This document shows, piece after piece, positions 8,182-55,154 of a stretch of 64,000 nt of DNA. The notes beneath the pieces are model-generated. The model made no database searches, had not been told where the DNA came from, and worked only from the letters and a program-made list of their open reading frames with translations. Every line of letters begins with the position of its first letter. Positions within the stretch are counted from its first letter, which is position 1. The stretch is taken from NCBI RefSeq assembly GCF_004570605.1, contig NZ_SPPB01000003.1, forward strand, positions 1 to 64,000. The letters run 5' to 3'. The stretch is from Granulicatella sp. WM01. GTDB taxonomy: Bacteria > Bacillota > Bacilli > Lactobacillales > Aerococcaceae. The translations under genes were made by a program, and so were the position numbers.

Positions 8182-8955
8182 CTATTCGCCTCCTAAATAC
8201 GCTTTGATAACCGCTTTATTTTGTTTAATTTCATCAGGTGTCCCGTGTGCAAGTAATCTTCCATATTCTAAAACATAGATGCGTTGACAAATCGACATGA
8301 CCAAAGACATATCATGCTCAATTAGAACAACTGTAATATTAAAATCTTGTTGAATTTTATGGATTAACTCTGTAAGTTCTGCCGTTTCTTGTGGATTCAT
8401 GCCAGCAGCAGGTTCATCTAAAAATAAAATACGAGGATTTGTTGCCAATGCTCTTACAATTTCAAGACGTCTTTGCTCTCCATAAGATAAATGTTTAGAC
8501 AAAACATCTTGTTTATCTTGCAAATTGAATAACGTCAATAATTCTAATGCTTGTTCACTCAATTCTTTTTCATTTTGATAATATTTAGATGTTCGACATA
8601 AACTATGCCATAATGATACGCCTTTTTTACTATGCATAGCAATTTTCACATTATCAAGTACACTTAATTCATGAAATAGACGTATATTTTGAAATGTACG
8701 GGTTAATCCTAAATCACTAATTTGATGAGGACTTTTTTGATTTAACACAACTGGTCCTTTATCAGTATCCAATGTAATTGTACCTTCACTTGGCACATAT
8801 ACACCTGTTAATAAGTTAAATAAAGTTGTTTTTCCTGCACCATTAGGGCCAATTAAGCCAACCAATTCATTTTTTTCAAACGTCATATCAACCATTGATA
8901 CTGCCGATAGCCCACCAAAGTTTTTCGTTAATTTTTTAATCTCTAATAAACTCAT
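8182..8955 (-). CDS. livG: branched-chain amino acid ABC transporter ATPase LivG
   Basis: This is the second ATPase of the Liv importer. It has Walker A GPNGAGKTT, the variant signature LSYGEQRRLEIVRAL and Walker B ILFLDEPAAGMNPQE. The Tyr in the signature and the 'AAGMN' D-loop are characteristic of LivG. At 257 residues it is longer than LivF, as expected. It overlaps livM by 4 bases. Confidence 0.96.
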   Translation of the reverse strand: MSLLEIKKLTKNFGGLSAVSMVDMTFEKNELVGLIGPNGAGKTTLFNLLTGVYVPSEGTITLDTDKGPVVLNQKSPHQISDLGLTRTFQNIRLFHELSVLDNVKIAMHSKKGVSLWHSLCRTSKYYQNEKELSEQALELLTLFNLQDKQDVLSKHLSYGEQRRLEIVRALATNPRILFLDEPAAGMNPQETAELTELIHKIQQDFNITVVLIEHDMSLVMSICQRIYVLEYGRLLAHGTPDEIKQNKAVIKAYLGGE

Positions 8956-9908
8956 CTGTCAACTCCTCCTTTCTTTGCTTTTAGAAATGTACTAAGCGAA
9001 AACTCTTTTTGCCCCAATAGTCCTTTTGGTCTGAAAATCATAACTAATAGCAATAAAACAGCATAAATAATCGTTCTCCAAACCCCAAGACTTTGTAAAA
9101 ACACATTAATAAGCCCTAATACAATAGAGGAAATCACTGATCCAGTCATACTTCCAATCCCTCCAAAAACAACGATAATTAACACATCTATTGAATTTTG
9201 GAATGAAAAATCGTTTGGTGTAATAACTCCAATATAACTACCATACAAAGAGCCTGCAATACTGGCACATATCGCTCCAAATACAAAGGCTATCACTTTA
9301 TATTTTAATATATGCACACCCATAACTTCTGCTGCAATCTCATTTTCACGAATAGCTAATGTCGCACGTCCTGAGCTACTGCGAATATAATTTGATACAA
9401 ACATAACCGTTAAAATCATAAATATAAAGACAATAGACCACGTTGCCGTATCGGGTATATTACTAATTCCGGCTGCTCCATTTGTAATATTGTCCGCATT
9501 AGAAATGATAATACGAATAATTTCAGATGTTCCTAAAGTTGCAATAGCCAAATAATCTCCACTTAAACGCAATGTTGGTATGCCCACACAAACGGCTAAA
9601 ACTCCTGCAAGAATTGCACCTACTAGTATACCTACAAGTAACCCTAAAACACCTGGCACTTGTTTATTAATAATTGCTCCAGAATAGGCACCAATCGCCA
9701 TAAACCCTGCATGACCTAAAGAAAATTGACCTGCAATACCAATGACCAAATTCAAACTAACTGCCAACATAATATTGATTAAAATACTCACTAATGTTAA
9801 TTCACTTGATTGTGTTAAAATAGATTGTGCGATTAATGTATCAATAAGCAACATACTAATTACTAGACTAACTACCCAAATGATATTTTGTTTACTGAAT
9901 AATTTCAT
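8952..9908 (-). CDS. livM: branched-chain amino acid ABC transporter permease LivM
   Basis: This is a membrane-spanning subunit of the Liv channel. The 318-residue protein has about eight or nine hydrophobic segments and the conserved LivM/LivH phrases NLVIGIAGQFSLGHAGFMAIGAY, LSGDYLAIATLG and ENEIAAEVMGV. FGGIGSMTGSVISSIVLG precedes the last helices. It lies 8 bases after livH and overlaps livG by 4 bases. It pairs with LivH to form the translocation pore. Confidence 0.95.
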   Translation of the reverse strand: MKLFSKQNIIWVVSLVISMLLIDTLIAQSILTQSSELTLVSILINIMLAVSLNLVIGIAGQFSLGHAGFMAIGAYSGAIINKQVPGVLGLLVGILVGAILAGVLAVCVGIPTLRLSGDYLAIATLGTSEIIRIIISNADNITNGAAGISNIPDTATWSIVFIFMILTVMFVSNYIRSSSGRATLAIRENEIAAEVMGVHILKYKVIAFVFGAICASIAGSLYGSYIGVITPNDFSFQNSIDVLIIVVFGGIGSMTGSVISSIVLGLINVFLQSLGVWRTIIYAVLLLLVMIFRPKGLLGQKEFSLSTFLKAKKGGVDR

Positions 9909-9916
9909 TTAGACAC

Positions 9917-10783
9917 CTACACTTTCTCTTTAACGGCTTTGCCTAGCAAACCAGCCGGTTTAACAATTAAAATAACGATTAAAATCGCATAAACAAGAGC
10001 ATCTTTATAAGAAGAAAACCCTAATACATTAACTACTGTTTCCAAAATACCGATTAAATAGCCACCTAACATTGCTCCTGGCACATTCCCAATTCCCCCT
10101 AAAACCGCTGCGATAAATGCTTTCAATCCCGGCTGCACTCCCATTAATGGCGATAACGAACCATAATACATACCAACGAGAACACCAGCAGCTCCTGCAA
10201 GTGCAGATCCTAATAAAAAGGTAAATGAAATCACATGATTGACATTAATGCCCATTAATTGTGCTGCTTCTTCATCTGTACTTACTGCTCGCATTGCCTT
10301 ACCCATTTTTGTTTTTTTAATGGTTAAGGTCAATACAATCATTAAAATAATTGTTACTACTAAGATAATGATTTGTTTTATACTTATCTGCGTTCCTAAA
10401 ATAGAAATCGCCGCATTTCCCAAAACATTTGGAAATGCTCTACTTTCACTCCCTACTGTTACCATCATCATATTTTCAATAAAATATGACACACCAATAG
10501 CTGTAATTAGCGCAGCAATGCGAGGGGATTTTCTAAGTGGTTTATATGCTACACGTTCTATAAGGACTCCACCCAATGCACAGATTAGCATTGTTAAAAT
10601 GAGAGCAGCAAAAAAATCAATCTTCAAAACTGTAATGAAAAAATAACCAATATATGTTCCAAGCATTAACATATCGCCGTGGGCAAAGTTAATTAAACGA
10701 ATAATTCCATAGACCATTGTGTATCCCAGTGCTACTAGAGCATAAATACTTCCTAATGATACCGCGTTAATAATTTGATCCAT
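9917..10783 (-). CDS. livH: branched-chain amino acid ABC transporter permease LivH
   Basis: This is the other membrane subunit of the Liv importer. It begins MDQIINAVSLGSIYALVALGYTMVYGIIRLINFAHGD, a textbook LivH N-terminus, and carries VLGGIGNVPGAMLGGYLIG near the C-terminus. The start at 10783 follows AAGGAGGAAACA. A longer open frame reaching 10855 would run through the hairpin between livJ and livH and is rejected. About eight membrane segments are visible. Confidence 0.95.
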   Translation of the reverse strand: MDQIINAVSLGSIYALVALGYTMVYGIIRLINFAHGDMLMLGTYIGYFFITVLKIDFFAALILTMLICALGGVLIERVAYKPLRKSPRIAALITAIGVSYFIENMMMVTVGSESRAFPNVLGNAAISILGTQISIKQIIILVVTIILMIVLTLTIKKTKMGKAMRAVSTDEEAAQLMGINVNHVISFTFLLGSALAGAAGVLVGMYYGSLSPLMGVQPGLKAFIAAVLGGIGNVPGAMLGGYLIGILETVVNVLGFSSYKDALVYAILIVILIVKPAGLLGKAVKEKV

Positions 10784-10803
10784 TGTTTCCTCCTTGTGCA
10801 TTG

Positions 10804-10850
10804 AACAAAAACGGCTACAAATCAACACTTTGGTGTGATTTATAGCTGTT
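10804..10850 (-). terminator. intra-operon hairpin between livJ and livH
   Basis: Arms of about 18 bases at 10811-10828 and 10832-10849 pair with few mismatches. On the minus strand they are followed by CGTTTTTGTT. This looks like a partial terminator that would let livJ be made in excess over the membrane genes, or a processing or stability stem. Confidence 0.7.
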
Positions 10851-10887
10851 TTCATTACTAATTTAGCTTTTTACCCAGCTTTTCATC

Positions 10888-12054
10888 TTATTTTGGGTTG
10901 ACAATTGTATAACTTGTTTCCTTTCCATTCACCAATTCAAGAACATAAGTTGATTTCACAACATTATGATTTTCATCAATACTAAATTTCCCTGTGACCC
11001 CTTCATAGTTTTTCACATTTGCCAATGCTTCTGTTATTTTTTGCGTATCAACTTCTCCAGCAGTTTCAATGGCACTTATCAACACACCTGAAGCATCATA
11101 AGCTAAAGCTGCAAATGCATCAGCCTCTTTATTATATTTTTCACGGTATGCTTTTAAGAAATTTTGGACTTTAGCATCTGTTGATAATGTAGTAAAATGA
11201 TTTGTATAAAATACTTTATTCACATTTTCTGCACCTGCCAACTCAACCAAAGTATCACTAGCAAATCCATCTCCACCTAAAATAGCTTTATCTATTCCAG
11301 TTGTTCGTGCTTGTTTAATAATCAATCCAGCCTCTTCATAATATCCTGCAACTAACAACACATCATAATCTAATGTTTTCAATTTTGTTAAAATCGCATT
11401 AAAATCTTTATCTCCTGCTTGGAAATTTTCTGTTGCGACAATCTCTCCTGAATAATTAGAAACAAACGCTTCTGAAAGACCTTTGGCATAGTCTGATGAG
11501 GTATCTTTTAAAAGAACAACTTTCTTAGCATGTAGTGTTTCATCAGCAAATGTTGCGAGTGCTTTTCCTTGGAAAGAATCACTATAAGCTACACGATAAA
11601 TGTAATTTAATACTTTCCCACTGCTATCCTTAATCACATTATCTCCTGTTGCAGCAGGTAAGACAACGGGTGTTTTTGCTTTAGTTGCCACTGGAACTTG
11701 TGCTAATGCATCTGCTGTTGTGGCAGGTCCTAAAATCCCTACAACGTTTTTCTCTGTTAGACTTGTTGCAACACTTGCGGATTCTTTTGTATCTGATTTA
11801 TTATCTAATTTAACAAGCTCAATTTGTTTCCCTAAAACACCACCACTTGCATTTTTTTCTTCTACGGCTAATTGAATAGCATCTAGCATTGGTGTTCCAT
11901 ACGAAGCTACTTTACCAGATAACTCTAAATTTGTTCCAATAGTAATCGTTGTTGCTTGACTTACTGATTTAGATTTTGTATTTGCTGCACTTGAGCAACC
12001 GGCTAATACTAGAGTTGCCAAAGCTATAACACTAACTATTTTTTTCTTTCTCAT
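10888..12054 (-). CDS. livJ: branched-chain amino acid-binding lipoprotein LivJ
   Basis: This is the extracellular substrate receptor of the Liv importer. MRKKKIVSVIALATLVLAGCSS is a lipoprotein signal with lipobox LAGC (Cys 19). The mature part is a type I periplasmic-binding fold, with GTNLELSGKVASYGTPMLDAIQLAVEEKNASGGVLGKQIELV and a VVGILGPATT segment. The start at 12054 is preceded by GGGAG; an upstream in-frame ATG ten codons earlier is less likely. It is the first gene of the operon, with an excellent promoter upstream and a hairpin downstream. Confidence 0.96.
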   Translation of the reverse strand: MRKKKIVSVIALATLVLAGCSSAANTKSKSVSQATTITIGTNLELSGKVASYGTPMLDAIQLAVEEKNASGGVLGKQIELVKLDNKSDTKESASVATSLTEKNVVGILGPATTADALAQVPVATKAKTPVVLPAATGDNVIKDSSGKVLNYIYRVAYSDSFQGKALATFADETLHAKKVVLLKDTSSDYAKGLSEAFVSNYSGEIVATENFQAGDKDFNAILTKLKTLDYDVLLVAGYYEEAGLIIKQARTTGIDKAILGGDGFASDTLVELAGAENVNKVFYTNHFTTLSTDAKVQNFLKAYREKYNKEADAFAALAYDASGVLISAIETAGEVDTQKITEALANVKNYEGVTGKFSIDENHNVVKSTYVLELVNGKETSYTIVNPK

Positions 12055-46981: not shown

Positions 46982-47085
46982 AATAAACCAAATCATGTCA
47001 TTTAATAACTAAAACCAAAAGCTAAATATACACCTGACATGTATTCACATCTACAAAAAACAGTTCTATGCCAAATAGAGTTAAA

Positions 47086-47121
47086 AAAGAGGTTATGCAG
47101 ATAAGAACATAGCCTCTTTTT
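47086..47121 (+). terminator. terminator of rnjA
   Basis: AAAGAGGTTATG (47086-47097) pairs with CATAGCCTCTTT, then TTTT. The same text (AGAGGTTATGCAGATAA) recurs 70 bases downstream in a weaker hairpin. Confidence 0.85.
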
Positions 47122-47439
47122 CGTGGCTAAAACATAAATTTTCTCTCTATGACAAACAGAGGTTATGCAGATAAAAGCACTGCTTCTTTTTCGTGATTAG
47201 AAAATAATGCTTAACATTAATAAAGTTACTCACTTTCACAAAAGTAAATAACCGGTGCAAAAAAGAATGCGTTTTAGTTTTTTAATTTTAATATAGCACC
47301 AAAAATTCAATTGCTCTATTTTTGATATAGTTTAGTCCATATAATATTTTGATAATTTTTCAACTTAATTGCATTCTAATTACTCAATGCCATCACTCTA
47401 ATTGATATTCAAACTATATTATTAGGAAATAAAAAATAA

Positions 47440-47469
47440 GGTCTTTGCCACATTCTATTGACAAAGACC
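47440..47469 (-). terminator. terminator of the AAA+ operon
   Basis: GGTCTTTGCCA (47440-47450) pairs with TGACAAAGACC (47459-47469); the minus strand continues TTATTTTTT. Confidence 0.8.
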
Positions 47470-47594: not shown

Positions 47595-48221
47595 TTACTC
47601 TCTAATCAACGTATAGTTATTCCCTTTCCCTACATCTGTGCCGTTAAAATAAGTCGTGCCATTGACTTCATAATGAACAGCATAAGTAATGCCTCCTCCG
47701 CCATCACGAATGCCTAAAATTTGCACTTCTCCTACTGTAGGAACGCTGAACACAACAGGTTTATTTTTAATCATAAACGGTTCAGTAATCGCTACTCCAT
47801 CAACTAAGACTTGAACATAATCACCGTCTTCAGCAGCATAATCCCAAACATAAATTTTAGCTTGTGCTTCTTTAGAACTGTGCTTAATGGTCAAATCTTG
47901 ATGAGATAGATTAGTATCCGATTGACTAATCCGTACACCTATTGGGAGTTGGGAGGATATTCCACTCTCTATTGCTGCATTGGCAGCTGACGAACTATTC
48001 ACACTCGCCAATTTTGGTAATGCAATAATAAATAGACCTAGTAACAACCACCCTGTAATCTTCAATTGCTTATCAAATCGTGATTTACGCTTATTTCTCT
48101 TTTGCTTTTTTTCTGTGGTAACATAAGCTTCTGGTGATTGATTCATCTCTTGTTCGGCATTACTATCCCACTCTACTTGATTATCTATCTTCTCTTGAAA
48201 TTCTCCTTGCTTATTATTCAT
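47595..48221 (-). CDS. single-pass membrane protein of the AAA+ operon, function unknown
   Basis: I do not recognise this 208-residue protein. Residues 1-50 are polar and acidic, then very basic (KKQKRNKRKSRFDKQ). A single membrane helix follows at about 53-70 (ITGWLLLGLFIIALPKLA). The rest should lie outside the cell and is beta-rich, ending in a compact domain of about 80 residues with DYVQVLVDGVAI and GGGGITYAVHYEVNGTTYF. The many Gly and Asp turns suggest an immunoglobulin-like or jelly-roll fold. Its start overlaps the previous gene by 8 bases, so it is translationally coupled. It may anchor or receive substrates of the AAA+ protein. Confidence 0.75.
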   Translation of the reverse strand: MNNKQGEFQEKIDNQVEWDSNAEQEMNQSPEAYVTTEKKQKRNKRKSRFDKQLKITGWLLLGLFIIALPKLASVNSSSAANAAIESGISSQLPIGVRISQSDTNLSHQDLTIKHSSKEAQAKIYVWDYAAEDGDYVQVLVDGVAITEPFMIKNKPVVFSVPTVGEVQILGIRDGGGGITYAVHYEVNGTTYFNGTDVGKGNNYTLIRE

Positions 48222-48657
48222 TGCTTTCCCTCACAACTCTCACTGTTTTTTTATGGCAGAAGATGCAAAATGCAAGACGGCTTACAATAAGCTGCACAAC
48301 CATTATCCAAAAGAACAGTGTATGCCTTGCTTCATTTTGCACTTGATACCCGTAATTCAATATTTCAATACCTACTGCTAAAATAGCTAAATTTACTGTA
48401 AGAATAATGATGTACGGATATAGCCAAGGATATTTATAAAAGTTTTTTCTAAAAAGCGGTACAAGCATTGTTATACCTGAAAATAAACTTACTATAGCTA
48501 ATATAGATAGAGCAACTTGTGTTGTCCCAAATCCAGACTGCAACACTGTATGTATACTGTCAAAAAGAGCAGGTATACTAATTGTTGATAATACAAGTAC
48601 TAAACTAATCACAATTAGCCATAATTTTTCAATAATATTTACAATCAGTTTGTTCAT
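48214..48657 (-). CDS. four-helix membrane protein of the AAA+ operon, function unknown
   Basis: This 147-residue hydrophobic protein matches no family I can name. Four membrane segments are visible at about residues 10-32, 42-66, 77-100 and 112-132. The C-terminus is basic (CHKKTVRVVRESNE) and contains a Cys-x-x-Cys pair (CIFCHKK). Its ATG overlaps the stop of the AAA+ gene by one base (TAATG), and the next gene overlaps its end by 8 bases. It is likely a membrane partner for the ATPase. Confidence 0.75.
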   Translation of the reverse strand: MNKLIVNIIEKLWLIVISLVLVLSTISIPALFDSIHTVLQSGFGTTQVALSILAIVSLFSGITMLVPLFRKNFYKYPWLYPYIIILTVNLAILAVGIEILNYGYQVQNEARHTLFFWIMVVQLIVSRLAFCIFCHKKTVRVVRESNE

Positions 48658-51600
48658 TATCCTAATACCTCCTTAATATCATCAACTGTAATTAATGGCA
48701 ATTCATCAGCACCCATCGTGCCAGAACGACTTAAGCGCACCGCTTGGGCATTTAAAGATCTTTCAAAAATATTTCTCACATATCTCCCATTTCCAAATTG
48801 TGCTTGCCTTCTAGCCTGTTCAAGCACTTGCTTCAATAGAACTGTTGCCTCTTGAGACAAAATATACCCTTGATTAGTATACATTTTTTCTGCAATACTA
48901 AATAATTCATCTGTTGAATAATCATCAAACTGAATTATATGTGGGAAGCGTGATCTCAAACCTGCATTTTGTTGCAAGAAATTTTGCATATCATCAGTGT
49001 ATCCTGCAAGAATAACCACTAGTTTATCTCGGTTATCATCCATCATTTTAACAAGTGTGTCAATAGCTTCTTGACCAAAATCGTTAGTTCCACCTTGTGC
49101 CAATGCATACGCCTCATCAATAAATAAGACACCATTGAATGCACTCTCAATAACTTCTCTTGTTTTAATCGCCGTTTGACCAACATATCCAGCAACTAAA
49201 CCTGAACGATCGGTTTCAACTAACTTATTAGTTGGAATGATGCCCATATTGGCTAACACATTTGCAATAGTTCGAGCTATCATAGTTTTCCCTGTTCCTG
49301 AATTACCTGTGAAAATCATGTGCAATGTTTGTGTGTCATCCACTTTCAAACCGTTCTTTTTACGTTCTTCTTGAACAATTAACCTTGCATTAAGACTACG
49401 AATATATTGTTTAACAGCATCTAAGCCTACCACTTTACTTAGTTCAGCTTCTAAATCATAATTTTTACCTGAAGGTATTTCTGGTTCAATATCTAATAAA
49501 GTAATAACACTTAACTCCTCATCACTCACGTCACTCATTGCAATACGAGTTGATTGGTTTCTAATAACTTCATCTAAAAAATTACGCACCATACGAGCAT
49601 TTCCCGATGTCACAGTAGCATGACGTTTTAAATGATATATAGCTTCTTTAAATGACAATATTGCATCATCACTAAAGACAAACCCCTTTTTATTCATCAT
49701 CTGTTTACCAATTTCAAACAGTTCATCAGCAGAATAATCAGGAAATTCAATCTTAAGTGGGAAACGAGAGTCTAAACCAGAATTTACTTTCATGAAATCA
49801 TTCATTTCTTTTTCATATCCAGCTAAAATAACAACAATTTCGCCACGATAGTCTTCAATGAGTTTCACTAAAACATCAATACATTCTTGCCCAAAAAGGC
49901 TACCGTCATTTGTAATAGCATACGCCTCATCAATAAATAACACACCGCCCAAAGCTGATTTAAATACCTCTTGCGTCTTTGTAGCTGTTTGTCCAACATA
50001 TTCTGAAATCAAATCTTTTTTATCAACTTCAACTAGATGACCTGATTTCAACACACCCATTGCATGAAACATATCCGCAACAACACGTGCCATAGTCGTT
50101 TTACCAGTACCTGGATTCCCACTGAAAATCATATTTAAAGATTGTGTTGTATCAACTGTTAAAGATGCCTTTTGACGCTTTTCTCTAGCACGAATAACAT
50201 GATATTGTGCTCTAATAAATTCTTTAACATTGTCAAGACCAATAATAGTTGATAGTTTTTCTTCAAGATTAAATGCTTCTTTTTCCAACAAGTCAAAATC
50301 TGCTACTGTTAATAATTCTAAATCTTGTGTAGTATCTTTAGCAATACGCTGTGATTGACTTAAAATAGCACTTTCAACTACATTACGTACAAGTCGTCCA
50401 TTACCGCTATCATTTTTTCCTTTAATTTGTTTTCGTTCAAATAAGTCAACCATTGCTGCATGGCACTCTTCACTAATACGATATCCCTTACTTTTAGCAA
50501 TAATGTTAGCAATATCATACATTTCTTGCGGCGTATAATCTTCGAACTCAATTATATGTGGGAATCTAGACTGTAACCCCGAATTTATTTTAAGAAAATC
50601 TGCCATCTCTCTAGAGTAACCGGCAAGAATTACTACTAAATCATCTCTATAGTCTTCCATACCTTTGACTAAAGCATCAATCGCTTCCAAGCCAAACACA
50701 TCATGTTTATCACGACACAGTGCATACGCTTCATCAATAAACAACACACCTCCAACTGCTGACTTAATTAAATCCATTGTTAATTTTGCAGTCTGTCCAA
50801 CATATTGACCTACCATATCCGCCCTGCTAACTTCCCTTAATTGACCGGAACTTAACACACCGATAGCTTTTAAATATTTAGCAACAATACGTGCAATAGT
50901 TGTTTTTCCTGTACCTGGATTTCCAGTGAAAATCATGTGCATAGAAAGACTTGCAGATTTTAACCCTTTTGCTGCTCTTAATTGTTGTACACTCAAGTTA
51001 TTTTCAAGATTGAACACATACTCTTTAACTGTTTTCAAACCAACAATTGAATTCAGTTCTTCCTTTATACTATCTAACGTTAAACGATTATAATGCCGCT
51101 CATAATTATCAAGTAACACCGATACATTATTCACATAAAGCATATAGTCTTCTTCATATTTTAGAACAACCTCATCTCTTTTGGTGACCTCATGTTGCAT
51201 AACATATTCAGACAACGGTTTGTAAATATTATCGTCTATATGTTCGACTAATCCCTTTACACCTTTTCTTGTATCATAAAAACGCATGATGGCATCAACA
51301 CAAGAATTGTCTAATTGTAAATTAATTCTCAGTTGCCGTTCTACCTTTTCATTCACATTGGTTAACAAATTCATAATGATTTCTCTTAATTCTAATTCAC
51401 TAAACGCATCAAGTACGATAATATCATTAATTTCTTGTGTAAATTCACTTCCAATATATTCTGTCACTTTATCAAATGAACCAGTAGCCGTAAAAATAAA
51501 ATATTTGCCGTTTGTGTTAAATTCAGAAATAGATGTTGTGTTTAACATCCCCGTTGAATCGACAAGTACATTATTTTGGAGTGAGTAACGTTTAGTCAAT

Positions 51601-52262
51601 TGATAGTTGCCGTTTTTAACCAATTGCATAACTACTTCCAAATAACGAAAGTTAGCTTTATCAACATGTTCAAACACCACAACATCTGATTGAGAATATA
51701 AACCTTTATACAAATCACTCATAAAGACGTCTTCTTCTGCACCTGTAGGGTATCTATCAAACACTACTTTAGGTACATCAACATAATCCAAAATCCCTCT
51801 TTCATTGAGCAATAAACACATATCCTTAACGGCTTTTACCTTACCATGACTATCATGTCCAATGATTAGAATGGTATTTCTAGGCATTGAATCATCAGTA
51901 CCCATAACAAACGGACGCTTGAATGCTTGGCATAATGCAGAAATATTACTCTCAGAGGCTACCCAAGATTGACGAAGCAACTGTTCAATGCCATCAAAGT
52001 TATTATCACTTTTATCTGTACGACTATTCATGCTAAATTCCACTTTATCGGATTTGGAACTTTTAGCTTGGTTTTCACTTGACGGACTATACGCATTTGT
52101 TTTATTTTGTACAATCGTATGTCCAAGAGTGCTATTATTTGTAAAAGGCATAGTAACTGATTGCTGCTTCTCTTTTACTATAAACCCCTCTTGCTTAATG
52201 GTATCGATAATTTGTATCTCAGGGAATAAAAATCGCAATGCAGATTTTATTGAAAATGTCAT
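48657..52262 (-). CDS. giant AAA+ ATPase: degenerate Hsp100-like module plus three CbbX/SpoVK-type modules
   Basis: This 1201-residue cytosolic protein has a poorly conserved N-terminus of about 90 residues. Residues about 125-355 resemble a Clp/Hsp100 AAA module with a broken P-loop (GHDSHGKV, 135-142) and a broken Walker B (VVVFEHVDKA, 194-203), so that module is probably inactive. Three CbbX-like modules follow. Walker A is GNPGTGKT at 447-454, GNPGTGKT at 715-722 and GNSGTGKT at 986-993. Each is followed by GVLFIDEAYA, a YVGQTA pore-loop phrase and a GLxSRFP arginine-finger-type motif. CbbX-type modules remodel proteins, for example Rubisco activation or the EccA part of mycobacterial type VII secretion. 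The substrate here is unknown. It is the first gene of a three-gene overlapping operon. AAAGGAAG lies before the ATG. Confidence 0.88.
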   Translation of the reverse strand: MTFSIKSALRFLFPEIQIIDTIKQEGFIVKEKQQSVTMPFTNNSTLGHTIVQNKTNAYSPSSENQAKSSKSDKVEFSMNSRTDKSDNNFDGIEQLLRQSWVASESNISALCQAFKRPFVMGTDDSMPRNTILIIGHDSHGKVKAVKDMCLLLNERGILDYVDVPKVVFDRYPTGAEEDVFMSDLYKGLYSQSDVVVFEHVDKANFRYLEVVMQLVKNGNYQLTKRYSLQNNVLVDSTGMLNTTSISEFNTNGKYFIFTATGSFDKVTEYIGSEFTQEINDIIVLDAFSELELREIIMNLLTNVNEKVERQLRINLQLDNSCVDAIMRFYDTRKGVKGLVEHIDDNIYKPLSEYVMQHEVTKRDEVVLKYEEDYMLYVNNVSVLLDNYERHYNRLTLDSIKEELNSIVGLKTVKEYVFNLENNLSVQQLRAAKGLKSASLSMHMIFTGNPGTGKTTIARIVAKYLKAIGVLSSGQLREVSRADMVGQYVGQTAKLTMDLIKSAVGGVLFIDEAYALCRDKHDVFGLEAIDALVKGMEDYRDDLVVILAGYSREMADFLKINSGLQSRFPHIIEFEDYTPQEMYDIANIIAKSKGYRISEECHAAMVDLFERKQIKGKNDSGNGRLVRNVVESAILSQSQRIAKDTTQDLELLTVADFDLLEKEAFNLEEKLSTIIGLDNVKEFIRAQYHVIRAREKRQKASLTVDTTQSLNMIFSGNPGTGKTTMARVVADMFHAMGVLKSGHLVEVDKKDLISEYVGQTATKTQEVFKSALGGVLFIDEAYAITNDGSLFGQECIDVLVKLIEDYRGEIVVILAGYEKEMNDFMKVNSGLDSRFPLKIEFPDYSADELFEIGKQMMNKKGFVFSDDAILSFKEAIYHLKRHATVTSGNARMVRNFLDEVIRNQSTRIAMSDVSDEELSVITLLDIEPEIPSGKNYDLEAELSKVVGLDAVKQYIRSLNARLIVQEERKKNGLKVDDTQTLHMIFTGNSGTGKTMIARTIANVLANMGIIPTNKLVETDRSGLVAGYVGQTAIKTREVIESAFNGVLFIDEAYALAQGGTNDFGQEAIDTLVKMMDDNRDKLVVILAGYTDDMQNFLQQNAGLRSRFPHIIQFDDYSTDELFSIAEKMYTNQGYILSQEATVLLKQVLEQARRQAQFGNGRYVRNIFERSLNAQAVRLSRSGTMGADELPLITVDDIKEVLG

Positions 52263-52919: not shown

Positions 52920-53432
52920 GAAATCTCCAAATAGAAAACTAAATGATATACTTCTTGAAGTTGATAAATCTAAAGTTTAAGTAGGGAAAGCTAAAAATTG
53001 TAATGGTAAATATCCATTTTTTACAAGTGGTTCTTCAATACTAACCTAGAACGAATATTTTGTAGATGGTAGATACTGCTTCCTTAATACTGGTGGTAAT
53101 GCTGATGTAAAATTTTATGTAGGTAAATCTGCTTACTCAACTGATACGTGGTGTGTTTATGCAGTTAATGATATGACGGATTATCTATACCTCCTTTTAA
53201 CAACCATAAAAGAAAAATTAAATAAAAAGTATTTTCAAGGAACAGGACTTAAACACTTGCAAAAAGCCTTATTAAGAAATTTAAAAATATTTATATACCT
53301 ACAACAAACGAATTATTAAATTTTAATAAAATTATTCAACCTATGTTCTATACAATCTCAAAAAATACAAGAGAAATAGAAAAATTAGTTTCTCTTCGTA
53401 ATTTTCTACTACCATTGCTTATAAATGGTTAA
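52920..53432 (+). pseudogene. type I restriction specificity subunit (HsdS) relic
   Basis: Plus-strand translation reads KLNDILLEVDKSKV, stop, GKAKNCNGKYPFFTSGSSI, then FVDGRYCFLNTGGNADVKFY. Next comes STDTWCVYAVNDMTDYLYLL, then YFQGTGLKHLQKALLRN. After a frameshift it continues REIEKLVSLRNFLLPLLING. These are the successive landmarks of one HsdS target-recognition domain and the distal conserved helix. Two in-frame stops (near 52978 and 53047) and at least one frameshift make it non-functional. No hsdR or hsdM is in the window. Confidence 0.8.
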
Positions 53433-54701: not shown

Positions 54702-55154
54702 AACATCCTCTTTTTAAATTAATTTAAAAGTTTACTAAATAACAATACTCAATAAAAAATTTATCTTTGATATATTAAATCATCTCTGTTTTTCCATATT
54801 AATTATACTATTTTGATATATCCTTATAAAGCGAGATGATTTACACATCCTACATCAACACTACCATCTAAGATGTTTTCTACAAAATATCTGACTTGAT
54901 TAAATGATGAAAATAGTAAAAATTCAAATTTTACATTTTGCTCTTTCAAATAGTTTTTTCTATTTTTAAGTTTCAAAAAACATCCTCTTTCTTTCCACTA
55001 ACAAATTGTTTTTCAATTCTCTTTATCTTCATTCCTTATCAGGATTGAGATCCCTAAAAACAAAGCAGATACTTGGTGGGCTAGCCCACCAAGTATCTGC
55101 GAATTATCTCTTATTCTTAGACTTTATACTACTATTAATAATTTTTTGTAAGCA
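54702..55154. other. intergenic with a fragmentary frame and a perfect palindrome
   Basis: On the minus strand, 54824-54976 is a 50-codon frame (TTG start after AGAGGATG) containing NYLKEQNVKFEFLLFSSFNQ. It may be the tail of a decayed gene, but I cannot name it. The 36-bp palindrome at 55065-55100 is listed separately. Confidence 0.35.
55065..55100 (-). terminator. 36-bp perfect loopless palindrome, likely terminator of the YaaH-type gene
   Basis: GCAGATACTTGGTGGGCT is followed directly by its complement with no spacer. On the minus strand it is followed by TTTGTTTTTAG, about 55 bases after the stop of the acetate-transporter-type gene. Confidence 0.65.

Follow-up and report, generated by a model that had tools for sequence, protein, structure and literature searches.

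Background

The question raised by this locus is what is done by an operon in which an AAA+ ATPase with four modules in one chain is encoded, in overlapping genes, together with two membrane proteins. ATPases of the CbbX clade are known for the most part as dedicated chaperones with one module, and their known clients are few. A sequence-only reading of the window (the whole stretch of 64,000 nucleotides that was analyzed, from Granulicatella sp. WM01) had taken the three genes for a cytosolic motor coupled to a membrane complex, with secretion, surface assembly or phage defence as candidate roles.

Organization of the locus

The following features were assigned in and beside the operon.

48657-52262, minus strand: gene 1, a 1201-residue multi-module AAA+ ATPase (open reading frame, Pfam and NCBIfam matches, orthologues)
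48214-48657, minus strand: gene 2, a 147-residue membrane protein of no known family with four transmembrane (TM) segments (open reading frame; homologue at 38 of 38 loci)
47595-48221, minus strand: gene 3, a 208-residue single-pass protein with a predicted extracytoplasmic beta domain (open reading frame, prediction; homologue at 38 of 38 loci)
47440-47469, minus strand: a hairpin like an intrinsic terminator, 3' of the operon (one found, against a mean of 1.8 in shuffled sequences; alone not significant)

Genes 1 and 2 overlap by one base and genes 2 and 3 by eight bases; these overlaps, the gene lengths and the domain layout given by the sequence-only reading were all recovered with the open reading frames, Pfam and NCBIfam, profiles and predicted folds. 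The neighbors of the operon in the window are genes for sugar metabolism, RNase J, a TPR protein and transporters, and the earlier statement that no WXG100 or EssC-type gene lies nearby was confirmed. The gene 2 and gene 3 proteins had no match in the Pfam, NCBIfam or PADLOC families.

Three further elements were noted in the window. Upstream of the operon (52930-53430), broken frames are a putative end of HsdS, the specificity subunit of type I restriction systems (KNCNGKYPFFTSGSS, RNFLLPLLING); in the interval from the TPR gene to the acetate transporter gene (55065-55100) there is a gapless perfect inverted repeat with two 18-base arms, possibly a terminator; and downstream of RNase J (47084-47207) there are two 54-base direct repeats, 81% alike, each of which contains a hairpin-like GAGGTTATG..CATAGCCTC stretch.

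Occurrence of the three genes in other genomes

The gene 3 alignment profile was scanned against 84,980 species genomes, and 38 good loci were obtained; as the loci were found via gene 3, the counts are those of co-occurrence given gene 3. Both membrane genes were present at all 38 loci by profile, and the ATPase lay directly upstream at 36 of them, the exceptions being L142, which is cut by the contig start, and L115, which is truncated. The hosts, as titled, were Lachnospiraceae, Eubacterium, Mogibacterium, Selenomonas, Anaerovibrio (strain RM50 carries the exact three-gene operon), Mitsuokella, Clostridium, Bacillus, Mesobacillus, Sutcliffiella, Paenibacillus and Sporosarcina and, outside Bacillota, metagenome-assembled genomes (MAGs) labelled Campylobacterota (Campylobacteraceae), Synergistota (Synergistes), Fibrobacterota (Fibrobacter) and Holophagales. 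In the main clade, the ATPase homologues do not occur mostly without the membrane genes, three dead-D2/CbbX chains (L082, L083 and L112) do lack them, and no description of the three-gene set was found in the databases and literature searched. The three genes form a genuine, conserved system rather than a peculiarity of this one locus. That it should be a chance cluster or a decaying remnant with no joint function, as the few truncated or fragmented loci (L115, L128 and L149) might be read, is hardly credible in view of the strict synteny and the intact motifs over several phyla.

Clustering of the neighbors gave no constant fourth partner; most neighbors were ordinary metabolic genes that vary by locus. 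Only a DUF4236 protein, which has phage relatives (phrog_38135), recurred, at five loci directly upstream of the ATPase (L119, position 1377; L121, 2669; L131, 2720; L136, 2646; L139, 2649). At L149 (8016-8540) the gene 3 frame overruns its usual end and the ATPase is in fragments, so this locus is probably decayed or misassembled; one member of the gene 3 alignment, probably that of L149, matched a rifampin ADP-ribosyltransferase (Arr-ms, 7e-24).

The set is sporadic and, as judged from sequence comparison, horizontally transferred. Gene 3 was found in 2 of 398 Bacillota genomes (about 0.5%), the window's own included, plus one weak domain match, and was absent from 75 other genomes of the same taxonomic family. 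Over its length, the window ATPase shares 71% identity with that of a Eubacterium MAG, a point in favor of horizontal transfer. A clean empty site was looked for beside RNase J in three members of the genus, and none could be demonstrated because the adjoining region differs in all three species.

CbbX-type modules of the ATPase

Three AAA (PF00004) and three AAA_lid_6 (PF17866) stretches were found in the 1201-residue chain with Pfam, and the best NCBIfam models were SpoVK, CbbX and EccA. The modules were placed as follows.

50283-51077, minus strand: CbbX-type module 1, residues about 396-660, intact (Pfam, motifs, position-specific cluster)
49473-50273, minus strand: CbbX-type module 2, residues about 664-930, intact, absent from two-module relatives (motifs, tree)
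48669-49463, minus strand: CbbX-type module 3, the last, residues about 934-1198, intact (motifs; last-position branch 97/97)

Inspection of the motifs agreed with the earlier assignment of three intact CbbX/SpoVK-type modules in one chain: Walker A and B, the GY of sensor 1, the N-x-G-L-x-S-R finger and sensor 2 are intact in each. Chains of the family consist of a dead Hsp100 D2 module followed by two to four intact CbbX/SpoVK modules; in 30 chains, Walker B, the AGY of sensor 1 and sensor 2 were kept in 85 of 85 CbbX modules and the NxGLxSR finger motif in 84, and the mean pairwise identity of these modules was 66-73%. In the maximum-likelihood tree of modules, those of the last position form one side of a branch (97/97), and the first and middle modules cluster by position almost as cleanly; two-module chains have the first and the last without the middle, and the four-module chain has two middle modules. 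Such clustering argues that the positions have separate, long-lived roles. We infer that separate roles fit stacked rings better than one hexamer of whole chains; a hexamer completed from whole chains (two chains of three modules) is disfavored, since relatives have two, three or four modules and the positions are clade-specific.

Dead Hsp100 module and N-terminal motif

The N-terminal part of the chain contains two further features.

51108-51998, minus strand: dead Hsp100 D2-like module, residues about 89-385 (profile, predicted fold; catalytic motifs lost)
52173-52262, minus strand: conserved N-terminal motif, residues 1-30 (..LRFLFPExQI..I..xGFI..), putative docking segment (alignment; the docking is deduced)

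That residues 90-380 are a domain of the family emerged from relatives located on a Subdoligranulum plasmid and on a fecal contig. A profile of 28 relatives of this region matched the D2 domains of ClpC and ClpB in the PDB (best 2e-21, to ClpC), and the predicted model (mean pLDDT 81) matched ClpB NBD2 with Foldseek (8e-16). In the window protein, Walker B reads VVVFEH in place of VVLLDE, the pore loop is lost and the Walker A threonine is replaced; across the family, most modules have FE at the Walker B pair with N, H or D next, lack the pore loop and usually have another residue for the threonine. As the catalytic motifs are lost throughout, the module is judged to be dead, and the sequence-only description of a catalytically broken Hsp100-like module thus holds. 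Its mean pairwise identity is 34%.

The N-terminal motif (FLFPExQI..I..xGFIA) precedes a variable linker (11% mean identity), which leads into the dead module. It is conserved in the operon chains that are complete at the N-terminus and occurs only in ATPase chains with membrane partners; at L082, L083 and L112, dead-D2/CbbX chains lack membrane genes in the examined stretch and lack the motif too. At L144 (4830-7418, Synergistes MAG), the dead module is lost and the motif, three CbbX modules and both membrane genes are present; therefore the motif, and not the dead module, tracks the membrane partners, and it may dock on them. The coupling of a cytosolic motor to a membrane complex is strongly supported by this restriction of the motif to membrane-partnered chains, together with strict three-gene synteny across very distant hosts. 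The third CbbX module of the L112 chain (8490-11864) is, moreover, degenerate (GGMGTGKN); this chain appears to be a derived form that has become detached.

Membrane proteins and the outside domain

The predictions bore out a four-helix protein and a single-pass protein with an outside beta-rich domain, the beta-sandwich with high confidence.

47598-47909, minus strand: beta-sandwich of gene 3, residues 105-208, with invariant WDxAAEDGDxV and DGxGGIT loops (alignment, predicted structure)

The gene 3 protein begins with a hydrophilic, variable, positively charged tail, followed by one TM helix and the beta-sandwich; the positive charge before the helix argues for an N-in, C-out orientation. 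The core of the beta domain has a mean pairwise identity of 67%, against 11% in the cytoplasmic tail; that of the four-TM protein is 35%. On these alignments the predicted outside beta-sandwich is among the most conserved parts of the set, and the core of its two loops survives even in remote versions of the domain. A metal- or glycan-binding site in the acidic loops would be a reasonable guess only. The best structural neighbors of the domain were CBM60/CBM36-type modules (Z 6.2 over 85-87 residues, a Z typical of common arrangements), for which no support by sequence was found. Foldseek searches with the outside domain gave no match at E below 1e-3, and the same was true for viral models.

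Related arrangements

A strong CbbX-type match was found in 68 of 395 Lactobacillales genomes. Many of the matches fall in chains 600-1000 residues long that carry one or two modules; the N-terminus is a beta-helix or TPR in some of these chains, and some adjoin a small multi-TM gene and a gene for an LPXTG protein. They resemble the operon chain in having several CbbX modules and, at some loci, a small multi-TM neighbor; unlike it, they have no clear dead Hsp100 module, and neither gene 2 nor gene 3 was found at 20 sampled tandem-CbbX loci. Tandem modules as such are thus not rare, contrary to the earlier claim, since many Lactobacillales have two-module chains whose N-termini are of other kinds; the special part is the combination. 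At three loci (L063, 4828-11314; L066, 1319-8379; L077, 2293-8753), ATPases with a beta-helix and two CbbX modules lie beside a small multi-TM protein and an LPXTG surface protein, which is a G5-domain protein with a HELSH-type motif or a MucBP protein; this looks like a second, unrelated-looking motor-membrane pairing in Lactobacillales.

When phage and plasmid records were searched with gene 3, only the Methylorubrum plasmid pB146-2 matched; a search of plasmids with gene 2 gave no match. On pB146-2, the gene 3 domain lies directly next to an Hsp100-type AAA ATPase with one TM segment, and MobQ and T4CP genes are near. The likeness to the operon is the same beta domain beside a membrane-linked AAA ATPase; the differences are the lack of CbbX modules and of a four-TM homologue and the MobQ and T4CP surroundings. 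In a further genome (L158, 4353-9912; G964:C24), a gene 3-domain protein has as its neighbors a 452-residue frame, a 249-residue TM protein weakly matched to NPCBM and a type IV secretion system (T4SS) coupling protein. The frame joins four TM segments to a single CbbX module, whose closest likeness is to the last modules of the family. The TM part of this fusion had no match to the four-TM profile, and the resemblance is one of analogy and not of homology. From these settings and the operon, the gene 3 domain pairs with membrane-linked AAA ATPases in three arrangements.

The occurrence of the domain near T4SS coupling proteins in two other settings, and the link of the CbbX clade to EccA and type VII secretion, would suit a motor for secretion, surface assembly or DNA transfer that moves protein or DNA across the membrane. 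We regard this as improbable, as the three-gene set has no recurring pore, relaxase, coupling protein, WXG100 or secreted partner, and its four-TM protein is small.

Possible roles in phage defence or envelope protection

Scans of viral sequences that used only gene 3 or an early N-terminal alignment gave no match at first. An orphan relative of gene 3 is carried by a 49-kb virus contig with portal and integrase genes (L161, 3446-12387; IMGVR_UViG_3300042934_001053), between homologues of PD-T4-7 (2e-80) and PD-T4-3 (1.5e-109), in the cargo region of a temperate phage. The same region also holds weak matches to PD-(D/E)XK and AbiU2-like HEPN, together with a LexA-type repressor and several unknown genes. 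PD-T4-7 was obtained in a functional selection for anti-phage genes and defends by abortive infection (PMC9519451). The phage-borne orphan sensor is a suggestive, real pointer to phage conflict, but a single one, and it is on this phage that the defence reading mainly rests.

In that reading, gene 3 would sense an infection-linked envelope event, the AAA+ motor would disarm a phage component or trigger membrane arrest, and the orphan sensor of the prophage would be a decoy or an exclusion factor of its own. The sporadic, horizontally spread operon, the phage relatives of the DUF4236 partner at five loci, type I restriction genes near one locus and the HsdS-like remnant upstream in the window are in its favor. 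Against it, genes 2 and 3 have no PADLOC model, and an arms-race sensor would be expected to vary, yet the outside domain is among the most conserved parts. When PADLOC was run on 103 nearer and 95 farther neighbor proteins, the outcome was chiefly a single type I restriction locus plus generic matches; with so little enrichment of defence genes around the loci, the defence-island idea was rejected. Thus, of the earlier suggestion of a phage-defence role, one suggestive phage case stands beside little enrichment of defence genes, and we hold the role to be possible and rather unlikely.

The invariant loops of gene 3 suggest a fixed chemical ligand, and the domain weakly resembles a carbohydrate-binding beta-sandwich at the fold level. 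Characterized members of the SpoVK/CbbX/EccA clade are dedicated chaperones, several of them tied to the envelope (PMC10659427), and a dedicated client is therefore expected here. The motor could then be a dedicated envelope chaperone in the style of SpoVK and MurG, which activates or extracts a cell-wall or membrane enzyme according to the wall state sensed by gene 3. The set is rare and patchy, unlike a core envelope function, its hosts are both monoderm and diderm, and no envelope gene recurs nearby, so that we entertain this reading only tentatively. The evidence favors neither phage defence nor envelope protection over the other.

Proposed mechanism

The broader reading that we prefer, with confidence about evenly balanced, is that of a single membrane-docked AAA+ machine for remodelling, encoded by the three genes and equipped with an outside sensor, as a mobile, accessory means of envelope protection against stress or phage. 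Each CbbX module type would form its own ring, and the chain would thereby build a stack, docked on the four-TM protein by the N-terminal motif and perhaps also by the dead module. Gene 3 would, with its outside domain, sense or bind an invariant ligand within the cell wall or close to it, possibly via a metal- or glycan-binding site formed by the acidic loops of that domain. The signal would cross the membrane, and the CbbX rings would pull a dedicated client with ATP and their YVG pore loops, as CbbX does on Rubisco. The biological role would most likely be an accessory one, protection of the envelope against stress or phage, spread horizontally.

A more specific proposal, which we put forward as a doubtful speculation, is a new class of membrane-embedded AAA+ anti-phage envelope surveillance, with a stacked CbbX motor, docking by the dead Hsp100 module on a four-TM platform, an invariant outside sensor and the lone sensor of the temperate phage as decoy or exclusion factor; if the operon is a defence system, its mechanism would be one so far undescribed. 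The preferred reading of a remodelling machine would mean that a whole membrane complex is encoded with a CbbX-clade motor in a compact three-gene unit, that the clade is linked to an extracytoplasmic signal, that two unnamed protein families find a place and that a dead Hsp100 module is reused as a non-catalytic part.

Comparison with known systems

No system-specific protein of the known anti-phage systems in PADLOC was matched; the ATPase gave only generic AAA matches such as IetA, TRIP13 and DolB. The calcium-dependent CBM60/CBM36 carbohydrate-binding modules are the best structural neighbor of the outside domain, weakly so at a Z within the range of common arrangements, and gave no match to it by sequence. 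The D2 of ClpC and ClpB shares fold and profile with residues 89-385 of the ATPase, which unlike it has lost Walker B, the pore loop and the Walker A threonine, has no D1 and is joined to CbbX modules; since the family as a whole has lost the Walker A/B and pore loop motifs of a catalytic D2, identity with an Hsp100 Clp ATPase was rejected. Type VII secretion, which the sequence-only reading had raised through EccA, was set aside, because neither an FtsK-type EccC/EssC nor WXG100 was found among the recurring or window neighbors (EccA/ESX, Ess) and the CbbX-type fold alone is in common; the N-terminal TPR domain of EccA is missing, the N-terminus here being the dead Hsp100 D2 module. SpoVK proper is confined to sporulating Firmicutes and has a short N-terminal domain and a single AAA module, in place of the three modules and different N-terminus found here, and the family also occurs in hosts labelled Selenomonas, Campylobacteraceae and Fibrobacter; by these features the ATPase is not SpoVK.

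The signature of the SpoVK/CbbX/EccA clade is a GY at sensor 1, an Asn four residues before the first Arg finger and a sensor-2 Arg (PMC10659427). The window ATPase has this signature with three copies each of the AAA core and AAA_lid_6, and shares with the clade the variable N-terminal recruitment domains. It differs from the clade in that the operon chain has two to four position-specialized modules, with a dead Hsp100 module as the N-terminal domain, and in that the operon adds two dedicated membrane partners of unnamed families.
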